The notes under the pieces are model-generated. The model had not been told where the DNA came from. It did not search any database and saw nothing but the letters and a program-made list of their open reading frames with translations. Of a DNA stretch of 32,313 nt, positions 3,187-31,805 are shown in pieces. The position numbers and the translations under genes are program-made. This stretch comes from Kiritimatiellia bacterium (lineage in GTDB: Bacteria > Verrucomicrobiota > Kiritimatiellia > RFP12 > UBA1067), in the NCBI GenBank assembly GCA_017525225.1, contig JAFXTB010000170.1, positions 1 through 32,313 on the forward strand, given 5' to 3'. Numbering within the stretch: position 1 is the stretch's first letter; every line of letters begins with the position of its first letter.

Positions 3187-3284
3187 CCACTAACGACTAA
3201 CCATCCACCTACGCTAAAGCTACGGTGGACGAGCTAACCACTAGCCACTAACCACTAACCACTAGCCACTAACGACTAACGACT
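3184..3284 (+). repeat. Array of 7-bp repeats between leuC and leuD
   Basis: The gap is filled by variants of the heptamer ACCACTA, ACGACTA and GCCACTA, broken once by a different inverted repeat (TCCACC 3204-3209 and GGTGGA 3224-3229). The array runs right up to the leuD ATG at 3285, so leuD has no recognisable Shine-Dalgarno sequence. Since the period is 7 and each unit contains TAA or TAG (and TAG on the other strand), the array has stop codons in all frames on both strands. Confidence 0.9.
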
Positions 3285-3764
3285 ATGAAAGCACACAAGT
3301 ATGGAGACAACGTCGATACCGACGTCATCATCCCGGCCCGTCATCTGAATACGTCCGATCCAGACGAGCTTGCGGCGCACTGCATGGAGGACATCGACCC
3401 CGCTTTCGCCGCCCGCGTCCGGTGCGGCGACATTCTTGTCGCCGGACGCAACTTCGGCTGCGGTTCCTCGCGCGAACACGCGCCCATTGCAATCAAGGCC
3501 AGCGGGATATCCTGCGTGGTCGCCGAGAGCTTCGCGCGCATCTTCTATCGCAATGCCCTCAATATCGGATTGCCCATACTGGAGTGTCCGGCTGCCGCCA
3601 AGGACATCTCCGCCGGCGATGAAGTGTCACTGGACCTCGCCACCGGCGAGATTGCCAATCTCACGACAGGGCGACGATTCCAGGCGGAACCCTTCCCGCC
3701 GTTCATGATGGAACTGATTGCGGCCGGAGGCTTGGCCGCCTATTTGAAAGGTGAGAGAAAATGA
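3285..3764 (+). CDS. leuD: 3-isopropylmalate dehydratase, small subunit
   Basis: Small partner of LeuC in the isomerase that makes 3-isopropylmalate. At 159 residues it is the short type that goes with the LeuC form seen here. Typical family stretches are [15 protein letters not shown] near the N-terminus and [14 protein letters not shown] in the middle, the latter being the substrate-binding loop that gives the family its specificity. The start ATG directly abuts the heptamer array and lacks a Shine-Dalgarno sequence. The 3' end overlaps leuB by 4 bases (ATGA), which suggests translational coupling from leuD to leuB. Confidence 0.95.
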
Positions 3765-7087: not shown

Positions 7088-7301
7088 TCGACATAGAAAC
7101 GGGCAGCGGCAAGATCCATCCTTGAGCCATAACGTAGCGTCGCCGCCGAGCGTGACGGGTATTGTTGTCCTCATTTCTGCCGACCTTTTACCGACGGTGA
7201 TAGTATAGCAGAAGCGGACAAGAAGTTTGTCAATTCAATGTCAAGTGTAAGTAAATAATCAATGACATTGGCCCAGGAACATAAAATGCAAAACATCACA
7301 A

Positions 7302-7329
7302 TTGTTCGGTGGGGGAAATATGATAAAAT
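7302..7329 (+). promoter_or_regulatory. Promoter of the AT-hook/winged-helix gene
   Basis: TTGTTC (7302-7307) and TAAAAT (7324-7329) are 16 bases apart. Only seven bases separate the -10 box from ATG 7337, so the message would be leaderless or nearly so. No Shine-Dalgarno is visible. The rest of the gap 7088-7301 holds nothing I can recognise. Confidence 0.5.
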
Positions 7330-7336
7330 ATACGCC

Positions 7337-7663
7337 ATGAAAAGTCATAGAGCCACAGGAAGACCTAGAGGAAGACCGCCATCATTGCCGTTCGATCTTC
7401 CCGAACAGATATTGCGCGATCTTGAAAGCAGGATGGACAAAACCACCCAGCTCGTCGTACCAGACCTTGGAAATCTTGCGAAAAGGCTAAACGTCAGCCG
7501 TTCATCGATCAAGCGAGAAATCACGGGTCTCAGGAACTGCGGATACATAGAGCTTCAGTACATCAAGAAGCGTCCAACCGATAGGGTATATACCATCCTC
7601 TACAAGCTGAGAAGTTATGCACAGGCTCAAAATTCCCCTCGTACAGATGCGCAGGTTCCCTGA
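7337..7663 (+). CDS. Small AT-hook and winged-helix DNA-binding protein
   Basis: The 108-residue protein begins with GRPRGRPP, a canonical AT-hook that binds the minor groove of A/T-rich DNA. A winged helix-turn-helix follows (LGNLAKRLNVSRSSIKREIT, then GLRNCGYIELQYI and a basic wing RPTDRVYTILYKLR). The start ATG 7337 is preferred to upstream starts because of the well-spaced promoter and because it precedes the AT-hook. Its last 14 codons lie inside an array of 22-bp repeats that continues past the stop, so gene and array are physically fused. It could be a repressor of its own gene, a small replication initiator, or a DNA-binding remnant of a mobile element. No specific family recognised. 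Confidence 0.6.
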   Translation: MKSHRATGRPRGRPPSLPFDLPEQILRDLESRMDKTTQLVVPDLGNLAKRLNVSRSSIKREITGLRNCGYIELQYIKKRPTDRVYTILYKLRSYAQAQNSPRTDAQVP

Positions 7664-7777
7664 TACTGGCTCAAAATTCCCCTTCACGCGGCTCAAAATC
7701 CCCCTTCACGCGGCTCAAAACTCCCCTCGTGCTGGCTCATAATTCCCCTCCAAGTGACTCAAAAATCCCCCTCCGCA
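7624..7777 (+). repeat. Seven 22-bp tandem direct repeats (iteron-like)
   Basis: Units start at 7624, 7646 (degenerate), 7668, 7690, 7712, 7734 and 7756. The core is GGCTCAAAATTCCCC followed by a more variable 7 bases. The exact 22-bp period (two helical turns) puts every core on the same face of the DNA, as in protein-binding iterons. The first two units overlap the coding end of the winged-helix gene. Similar clustered motifs also occur at ends of IS21-type elements, an alternative reading. Confidence 0.85.
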
Positions 7778-7808
7778 GGCAAATCTACATTGCCATAGGA
7801 GGGGATTT
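7763..7808 (+). repeat. Long hairpin closing the 22-bp repeat array
   Basis: AAATCCCCCTCC (7763-7774) pairs with GGAGGGGATTT (7798-7808) with one bulged C, and inside it GGCAA (7778-7782) pairs with TTGCC (7790-7794) around a 7-base loop. The right arm is an inverted copy of the repeat core, so the array ends in a palindrome. Confidence 0.65.
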
Positions 7809-7820
7809 CTAGCACTGCCG

Positions 7821-8249
7821 CTATTTGACCTTCACGCGCAGAAAGAACATAGGCGGTGTTCCGTTGGGCGTAACCGTAGCTTTGGCTTTGCCATCGATGG
7901 TGCGTTCAAGCGTAACCATCACGTTATCGGACGAAAATACCGATTCGTTCAGCTCCGCCGCGCCTTCAACGCCCAATGTCACAGCCAGCCGCGCCGCCGT
8001 GCCTATCTCGGCTCCAGCGATGTTAACTACGAGATCGAATGCCCCTGCCACCGTACTCGACGGTGCGATGGATTCGATCACAACATCCTCGCTTGCCAAC
8101 GCCGCCGCTTTCGCCATCAGTCCCGGCGCATCCAGCACATACGAAAGCCAGGCATTAGGCGCATCCTTCACCAAGGCGTGGGACAGACTGTTGTTATCCC
8201 CCCATATGAGCGGAAGGCCGTGTATGCTACGTAGTACTAATTGCGTTCT
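7821..8249 (-). pseudogene. Decayed C-terminal end of a large surface protein
   Basis: An open frame of 142 codons runs from a stop at about 8250 to TAG at 7821-7823 without a convincing start codon or ribosome binding site. The sequence GLPLIWGDNNSLSHALVKD, a middle stretch in beta-rich style, and the ending TPPMFFLRVKVK look like the last domain of the large exported proteins common in Kiritimatiellota-type genomes, which often end in FFLRVK. I read it as a 5'-truncated remnant. It lies between the 22-bp array and the membrane-protein operon, consistent with a site of rearrangement. Confidence 0.5.
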
Positions 8250-22689: not shown

Positions 22690-23501
22690 CCGTGGCTTGC
22701 CGACGGGGATTCCATCTCGCTCTGGCATTCCATGCACGTGTGCACGAACGGCATGTTCATGAGACGCGGCTTGCGAATGAGCTGCCCGCACATCTCGCAG
22801 ATGCCGTACGTTCCGTCGGCGATGCGGCGCAGGGCATCGTCGATCTTGCAGATTATGCGGTTCTGGGAATCCGCCTGATTGAGACTCTGCAGCCGCAGGA
22901 ACACGTCGCTGCCGTCGGCATCCTCGCCGAGACGGTCGTCGGTCTGCTCAAGCGCGATCGTCTTGAGCGTCGCGGACTGCCCCATCGCCGCCTGACGCAT
23001 CTGCAAGAGGCGCTTCTTGAATTCCTCCAGATCCGCCGCAGGGAACTTCAGCGTCGCCTTGCCCTTGGCGCGGGTTGTAGGCCTGCGCGACAGGCGGACC
23101 GCCTGCTCCGCGTTCGCGAGCTCCTCCTCCTGGCGACGGTTCGCCTGCTTCATCATCTCCGCGATGCTGTACGCGAAATCCTTCCCGGAAGCCGGCACGG
23201 CATTCGGAGCGGTGGCAGCCTCCACAGGCTTCACAGGCTTCTTATTAGACGTCGTAGGCTTCTTCGGTGCCGTAGGCTTCTTCGCAGGTACCACAGGCTT
23301 CTTCGCAGGTGCCGCAGGCTTCTTGGCGGGCACCGGCTTCTTCGCGGGCGCGGGCTTCTTCGCAAGCACCGGCTTCTTGGCAGGCGCGGGCTTCTTTGCG
23401 GGCGCGGGCTTCTTAGCAGGCGCGGGCTTCTTCGCGGGCACCGGCTTCTTCGCAGACTTGGCGGAAGCCTGGGGTTTAGCGTTCTTTTTCTTCGTGCTCA
23501 T
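22686..23501 (-). CDS. TraR/DksA-family zinc protein with long Lys/Ala/Pro repeat tail
   Basis: The C-terminal part of the 271-residue protein has the DksA/TraR zinc finger CEMCGQLI ... HTCMEC (C-x2-C-x17-C-x2-C) preceded by a coiled-coil helix (LEEFKKRLLQMRQAAM) and the family phrase RIADGTYGICEMCG. Relatives bind the secondary channel of RNA polymerase. The first 85 or so residues are a low-complexity tract of repeated AKKPAP and variants, encoded by near-identical 18-bp units (about 23290-23455). This is strongly basic and resembles histone-like or RNA-binding tails. Start ATG 23501 follows GAGGAAAC. It lies 16 bases after greA, another secondary-channel factor, and overlaps lspA. Confidence 0.85.
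   Translation of the reverse strand: MSTKKKNAKPQASAKSAKKPVPAKKPAPAKKPAPAKKPAPAKKPVLAKKPAPAKKPVPAKKPAAPAKKPVVPAKKPTAPKKPTTSNKKPVKPVEAATAPNAVPASGKDFAYSIAEMMKQANRRQEEELANAEQAVRLSRRPTTRAKGKATLKFPAADLEEFKKRLLQMRQAAMGQSATLKTIALEQTDDRLGEDADGSDVFLRLQSLNQADSQNRIICKIDDALRRIADGTYGICEMCGQLIRKPRLMNMPFVHTCMECQSEMESPSASHG
23290..23455 (-). repeat. 18-bp coding tandem repeats (Ala-Lys-Lys-Pro tract)
   Basis: About nine near-identical units, mostly of 18 bp (on the plus strand variants of GGCTTCTTCGCAGGC plus three bases), encode repeated AKKPAP or AKKPVP. Such arrays change copy number easily, so tail length may vary between strains. Confidence 0.8.
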
Positions 23502-31656: not shown

Positions 31657-31667
31657 GTTTACCCCCA

Positions 31668-31786
31668 GCCACTAACCACTAACGACTAGCCACTAGCCAC
31701 TAACGACTAGCCACTAGCCACTAACGACTAACCACCAACCACCAACTACCAACTACCAACTACCAACCAACCAACTAACCACTACC
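31668..31786 (+). repeat. Long array of 7-bp repeats
   Basis: About sixteen heptamers (GCCACTA, ACCACTA, ACGACTA, then drifting to ACCACCA and ACTACCA). Same family as the arrays between leuC and leuD and between pdxS and pdxT. It ends about 35 bases before the start of the next gene. Confidence 0.9.
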
Positions 31787-31805
31787 ACACCCGCCCCCGT
31801 TTTGG

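Follow-up and report, generated by a model that had tools for sequence, protein, structure and literature searches.

A gene for a 108-residue winged-helix protein and an array of 22-bp direct repeats, partly overlapping each other in the window (the whole stretch of 32,313 nucleotides analysed, from a Kiritimatiellia bacterium), form a unit that recurs among genomes of one gut-bacterial family. We read this unit, with a probability of roughly 0.4, as a mobile, detached origin-recognition-like module composed of a winged helix and iterons. Sequence comparison establishes that the unit exists, that its repeats are exactly phased, that it has been copied within and between genomes, that the protein is under selection, and that recognition helix and repeat core match in type. 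A role in replication is suggested by analogy with known systems.

Gene, Array, and Hairpin in the Window

The unit and its immediate surroundings comprise the following features.

7283–7336, plus strand: promoter-like region and left edge of the copied unit, with TATGATAAAAT at 7319–7329 (−10 assigned by eye)
7337–7663, plus strand: gene for the 108-residue winged-helix protein with an AT-hook-like GRPRGRP (ORF, Pfam HTH_36, AlphaFold model)
7624–7777, plus strand: seven 22-bp direct repeat units with core GGCTCAWAAWTCCCC (pattern count, autocorrelation)
7646–7667, plus strand: degenerate second unit, phase kept, with little left beyond TTCCC (same position degenerate in 13 arrays)
7763–7808, plus strand: hairpin in which the last core pairs with the downstream GGAGGGGATTT (folding compared with shuffles)
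7809–7915: right-hand part of the stretch common to a second copy (on contig C134), overlapping the 3′ end of a minus-strand ORF at 7821–8174

The initial annotation had proposed a winged helix joined to an AT-hook. The winged helix is supported by a match to Pfam HTH_36 (28.5 bits; cut-off, 25) and by an AlphaFold model in which it spans residues 21–91, with pLDDT near 90 over residues 21–90. Of the AT-hook there remains a GRPRGRP motif, read by eye at residues 8–14, but the Pfam AT-hook model is not among the Pfam hits of the protein, and the N-terminal stretch that holds the motif is modeled with low confidence. No Rep family occurs among those Pfam hits. The protein contains a single winged helix, and the chain ends soon after it. 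A fold search retrieved generic winged helices only, with no family standing out; the best matches are mostly repressors, and DnaD is also found, as is, at rank 50 with a TM score of 0.52, a replication terminator protein that we take to be the one from B. subtilis. Weak PHROG matches include O-like and DnaD-like replication proteins. The generic fold, as modeled, favors no function.

The seven units with an exact 22-bp period that had been described are all present, the second in degenerate form. They start at 7624, 7646, 7668, 7690, 7712, 7734, and 7756, each step being exactly 22 bp; the 3′ end of the gene extends over the first unit and into the degenerate second. When up to two mismatches are allowed, GGCTCAAAATTCCCC has six matches, all in the array, where 0.08 would be expected and no more than one was reached in 100 shuffles. 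The autocorrelation of the array at lag 22 is 0.55, compared with 0.45 for the largest autocorrelation at lags 5–59 in 2000 first-order Markov shuffles. These tandem direct repeats, in fixed phase beside a gene, uphold the iteron-like layout that was proposed at the outset. Chance adjacency of gene and array was rejected on the basis of the shuffle counts, the recurrence, and the phasing across loci. No Rfam match to the array, the leader, or the window was obtained in 10 sources.

The closing hairpin that was noted together with the array is real at 7763–7808, with z scores of −3.8 and −4.3 under DNA and RNA parameters, respectively, and none of 200 shuffles folds as well. It is strong in both copies in the window genome, and within one group five further arrays (L057, L061, L133, L138, and L145) show it clearly, in a survey that set aside the sub-chains of L064 and L065 and arrays with fewer than 55 bases available. 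The hairpin is thus restricted to some arrays, and its standing as a general part of the module was rejected.

Other repeats occur in the window as well. Tandem 7-bp repeats (CTAACCA / CCACTAA) with a 21-bp super-period lie at 3234–3285 and 31667–31788, and repeats of 18, 36, and 54 bp (GGCTTCTTCGCGGGCGCG) at 23257–23455 probably code for a low-complexity stretch.

Recurrence and Distribution of the Unit

Of the order's 161 genomes, 26 match in a profile search, every one of them within a single family; a search of 194 genomes of the phylum with the single protein finds a match in its own genome only. With a broader profile, five of 387 phylum genomes match within the same family, and four outside it give weak matches of 28–30 bits inside larger frames. 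Among the 46 relatives listed, 44 places were examined, the window included (G311 and G267 were left out), and a 22-bp-type array or a remnant of one lies beside the gene at 38 of them: 26 by core scoring and a further 12, where the core varies or remnant units survive, by visual reading and period. The other six consist of two genes cut by a contig end, one broken gene, and three distant proteins of other build. Gene and array are a recurring unit, and the proposal that they belong together is borne out.

All of the genomes are draft assemblies, in which ORFs were called by a simple longest-ORF rule. The copies are dispersed and often shortened. Copies from different genera group closely in the tree, as do L059 and L060, which are separated by a dS of only 0.10; contamination of draft assemblies is possible in such cases. 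In a distant subfamily the AT-hook-like motif is missing, and arrays of 22-bp TTTTAGACCA units directly precede the gene.

The phasing seen in the window extends across loci. Under a chain rule that accepted only multiples of 22 plus or minus 1, 57 chains contain 178 gaps, 174 of which are 22, 44, or 66 (158, 15, and one, respectively). The four gaps of 21 or 23 all come from two related loci and reflect artefacts of register. Thirteen arrays open with a gap of 44, corresponding, as in the window, to a degenerate second unit with the phase kept, and at 13 loci the gene terminates within the first unit, at the TAA of GGCTCATAA (GGCTCA-TAA). The array is downstream of the gene in most loci; it is upstream and inverted in L072, L073, L088, and the TTTTAGACCA group. 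It is always the GxCTCA or GGTCT end that points toward the gene, and the array reads outwards whether it lies downstream or upstream.

Two kinds of additional repeat were encountered near such arrays. The first 400 bp of L074 hold, besides its own array, a second array of 22-bp period and different sequence (ACTCGAAAAAGTCCATGGTTGC). In genome G233, the GTCTCA arrays of L141, L142, and L181 are followed on the outer side by a tandem array of ∼11-bp units (TGCGGCACTTA).

Arrays also occur without the gene. An exact two-unit pattern finds matches in 13 of the 161 genomes of the order, with 37 in G246 alone, and its reversed control finds none among the matches listed. In the 27 array loci without an intact gene that were read, at least four (L123, L125, L127, and L134) retain a 3′ remnant of the gene, so arrays evidently survive its loss. 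In four genomes, gene-less arrays are immediately preceded by a second repeat family (CCCTAATCGTAGG, spaced at ∼22 bp), which was seen at L122, L124, L126, L130–L132, L135, and L137 and, in the window genome, at G000:C46.

Correspondence of Protein and Array

Where the recognition helix reads SS[IVL]KR or SA[IV]KR, the second base of the core is G in 13 of 13 arrays; where it reads ST[IV][SA]R (the S or A type), that base is T in 7 of 7, in a count confined to loci with a scored array and without variant cores. By eye, L069, L070, L071, and L075 (G) and L067 and L074 (T) fit the same rule. Both types are present in single genomes, G319 and G241 for example. Since the tree sets the K type apart from the rest, the correspondence amounts to about one switch and not to 20 independent observations. 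Because the second core base varies with the type of recognition helix, the protein and its array appear to be cognate.

Values of dN/dS between 0.08 and 0.33 in 12 pairs indicate that the protein is under purifying selection; between the two copies in the window genome the value is 0.14. The 108-residue protein very probably binds its own 22-bp array. Between the two subfamilies nature supplies a switch, K59 going with GGCTCA and S or A with GTCTCA, which would make the putative recognition code directly testable.

Copies in the Window Genome and a Possible Element End

A second full copy of the unit, at G000:C134, encodes a protein 86% identical to that of the window and has its own four-unit array; DNA similarity between the two copies spans 7283–7915. 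A third copy, internally deleted, lies 1.5 kb away and is followed by a RAYT-like ORF that scores 31.7 bits against a cut-off of 80, the single place where such an ORF was seen. The three copies have a common left edge at 7283, with unrelated DNA before it, and the left-end sequence is found at exactly three places in the genome, namely, these copies. In the window, genes of pyridoxal synthesis lie upstream of the unit, and no defense gene was recognized near by. Neither the gene nor an array is present downstream of pdxT in two relatives, one of the same genus and one of the same family. The common edge and the gene- and array-free pdxT flank make the window locus look like an insertion of an acquired element.

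It is conceivable, if distinctly unlikely, that the array marks one end of a transposable element, to which the protein guides a transposase supplied elsewhere; the outward-reading arrays would then be element ends. Such a role would account for the constant direction of the arrays away from the gene, for the dispersed and often truncated copies with their common left edge, for the RAYT-like ORF after the deleted copy, and for the last unit, which is kept as TCAAAAATCCCCCTC in most GGCTCA arrays. However, arrays of at least two units at both ends were seen at no locus, the window genome has no rve domain, and the RAYT link was seen once. A RAYT/REP system would pair a palindromic repeat with a linked Y1 transposase; here the hairpin is found in some arrays only, and the RAYT-like ORF falls below its cut-off.

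Ends of IS21-family elements contain multiple short direct repeats, and an IS21-type end had been put forward for the window array. The window genome differs in being without an rve transposase (IstA): PF00665 (rve) has no match in the whole genome, and the control matches in 6 of 14 genomes. With no rve domain, an IS21 end is unsupported in this genome and was rejected.

Neighboring Genes and a Possible Regulator

The module appears to have spread in chromosomes, often beside restriction–modification or other defense genes. In 12 genomes, MmeI-type genes scoring above 50 bits number 18, half of which carry the gene or an array at their 3′ end; the nine share ancestry and are not independent. 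Among gene-bearing copies, HsdM and HsdS of a type I system are found at L071 and an Eco57I-like type IIG enzyme at L057. An m5C methylase and a restriction enzyme lie beside the array at L054, a type II methylase and a restriction enzyme adjoin the gene-less array at L145, and an orphan methylase (L147) and a candidate defense gene (L138) are further neighbors of arrays. These loci were chosen by eye after the ORFs had been read. PADLOC has no match for the neighbors at L056, L136, L144, and L128 or for one ORF each of L147 and L061. In an unsystematic look, no integrase or relaxase was recognized beside the copies.

Another explanation is that the protein regulates transcription locally through an operator array of its own, travels with defense cargo whose expression it controls, and, when bound to the array, represses or insulates the adjacent genes. 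This would make sense of the restriction–modification genes that follow the array at L071, L057, and L054 and, without the gene, at L145. We regard this explanation as possible but rather unlikely, and place it second to the origin-recognition-like module. In the five arrays with a clear hairpin, a conserved stretch of ∼100 bp after the array holds that hairpin and a promoter-like TATACT and is followed by different genes, an arrangement that suits a regulator; the similarity runs on through a longer leader at L057, L133, and L145. The position of the array just upstream of the gene in the distant subfamily and the preponderance of repressors among the best fold matches point the same way. On the other hand, around 42 arrays the outer ORFs (at least 180 residues, within 1.5 kb, crudely called, and exclusive of the sub-chains of L064, L065, L124, and L141) run toward the array in 23 cases and away from it in 19, so a promoter bias is absent, and the arrays show no conserved promoter position. 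No core precedes the MmeI gene at the three loci scanned (up to 600 bp at L059, less at L060 and L078). Arrays usually occupy 3′ ends, as they do beside the genes of the main subfamily, and a simple operator role therefore fits poorly. A scan of the window finds no core of 8 bits or more outside the array, and the best site in the gene's own promoter scores −1.6 bits. Promoter autoregulation in the main subfamily is therefore unsupported, and the autoregulator with operators that was among the first proposals is weakened by these findings.

At three places (L067b, L068, and L072) the far side of the array, as seen from the gene, is occupied by a gene for a DUF3987 ATPase. The order is gene–array–DUF3987 at L067b and L068 and is reversed at L072. 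The L072 protein, which on its own falls below the Pfam DUF3987 model, is assigned to the family through its similarity to the L068 protein (46% identity). These three are the only such cases among some 70 gene or array places, and no DUF3987 protein over threshold is found in the window genome. According to an excerpt of PMC5862659, a helicase function in mobile elements has been predicted for DUF3987, and an excerpt of PMC10803314 describes it as a primase marker of PICMI satellites. About 7 kb beyond one array-adjoining DUF3987 gene, at L182:1261–3304, adjacent ORFs resembling an AAA-ATPase and an HNH protein form, by eye, a Septu-like pair.

A Proposed Origin-Recognition-Like Module

The winged helix, the iterons, and the DUF3987 gene form a layout that leads us to favor an origin-recognition-like module, for which lambda O is the closest precedent. 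In this reading, the winged-helix protein would bind the 22-bp units, one per two helical turns. Unit spacing of two helical turns would place the bound copies on one face of the DNA in an ordered complex, and this complex would read away from the gene. Spacing, polarity, and the match of helix to core together make ordered, cooperative binding the best reading of the array. The module would thus be built as the origin-recognition half of a replication unit, with an O-type winged helix followed by iterons and, in some copies, the DUF3987 helicase-like ATPase as its partner across the array. Most of the chromosomal modules, that of the window included, would be detached copies that moved with or beside defense genes. 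With more doubt, we suppose that the complex once opened, or still opens, the origin of a mobile element.

Several known systems bear on this proposal. R6K has seven tandem 22-bp direct repeats, as given in an excerpt of PMC4980987. Iteron-plasmid replicons of this type carry phased tandem repeats of 17–22 bp. Like R6K and pPS10, the module has tandem 22-bp direct repeats in fixed phase, and the Rep proteins of those plasmids are also winged-helix binders. Rep, however, has two winged-helix domains and acts on plasmids, whereas the 108-residue protein has one and its copies are dispersed in chromosomes; moreover, the first unit here lies inside the 3′ end of the gene. This last feature recalls lambda O, whose N-terminal half binds four 19-bp iterons situated inside the O gene, as set out in an excerpt of PMC4488673. 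In the module, too, the first unit overlaps the 3′ end of the gene, after the part that codes for the helix-turn-helix. Unlike lambda O, the 108-residue protein has no C-terminal part for helicase recruitment, and a DUF3987 partner is present only at L067b, L068, and L072.

The excerpted text of PMC6137059 describes TcpK, a winged-helix protein of 102 residues that binds tandem repeats, its boxes being 9 bp long and 3 bp apart at the oriT of the conjugative plasmid pCW3. As far as that text goes, TcpK resembles the present protein in being a stand-alone winged helix of about 100 residues with tandem boxes adjoining its own gene; it belongs to a conjugative plasmid, whereas no transfer genes were recognized here. 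By extension, the protein could bind the array as a centromere-like, oriT-accessory, or terminator site, in a complex for partition, transfer, or fork arrest. The strict polarity of the arrays and the replication terminator protein among the fold matches agree with such a complex. Nevertheless, neither a partition ATPase nor a relaxase was noticed near the copies, and a centromere or terminator is ill-suited to several copies per genome in varied contexts. This is the least probable of the readings considered.

Against the origin-recognition-like module stands the finding that the collections searched contain no plasmid, phage, or viral-contig carrier. No match to the protein turned up among 72,556 plasmid and 50,697 phage records, and viral contigs gave none by profile search or by two exact two-unit patterns; the uncultured lineage is probably poorly covered in all of these. 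The check recommended in the initial annotation, a search for the protein with its arrays in plasmids and phages, thus yielded no carrier by protein, profile, or exact two-unit pattern. For the integrated replicon remnant proposed there, the three DUF3987 genes speak in favor and these searches against. In open-license PMC full text, nothing was found on the combined gene and array.

Another use of the same parts, which we consider very unlikely, is that the scattered arrays, of which many lack the gene and many adjoin restriction–modification or other defense genes, are chromosomal decoy origins that soak up the initiator of an invader with the same winged-helix/iteron code. Defense would then operate by origin mimicry rather than by cutting, and, where an array still has its gene, that gene would represent an initiator captured or poisoned. 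Lambda offers a precedent for the principle in the paper on ectopic origin copies, at least as conveyed by its title, “Arrest of Viral Proliferation by Ectopic Copies of Its Cognate Replication Origin” (PMC4488673).

If the origin-recognition-like reading is right, a single-domain protein and its own array would constitute a compact, self-contained specificity pair that spreads with defense genes, and scattered tandem repeats of gut-bacterial genomes would be tied to one protein family.

Variant Relatives

A few proteins depart from the common build. L079 and L080, together with L086, which has a stop, show the same deletion of the winged-helix core in two species; the deletion is in frame in two of them, and the AT-hook-like start and the C-terminal end are kept. 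L077 / L170 (G273 C35) encodes a 413-residue protein with a similar AT-hook-like motif and helix at its start and a further C-terminal part. L091 (G266 C204) contains a phage-replication-like ORF that begins with a helix-turn-helix and has GTTGCACAGCGCTAC repeats inside the gene.
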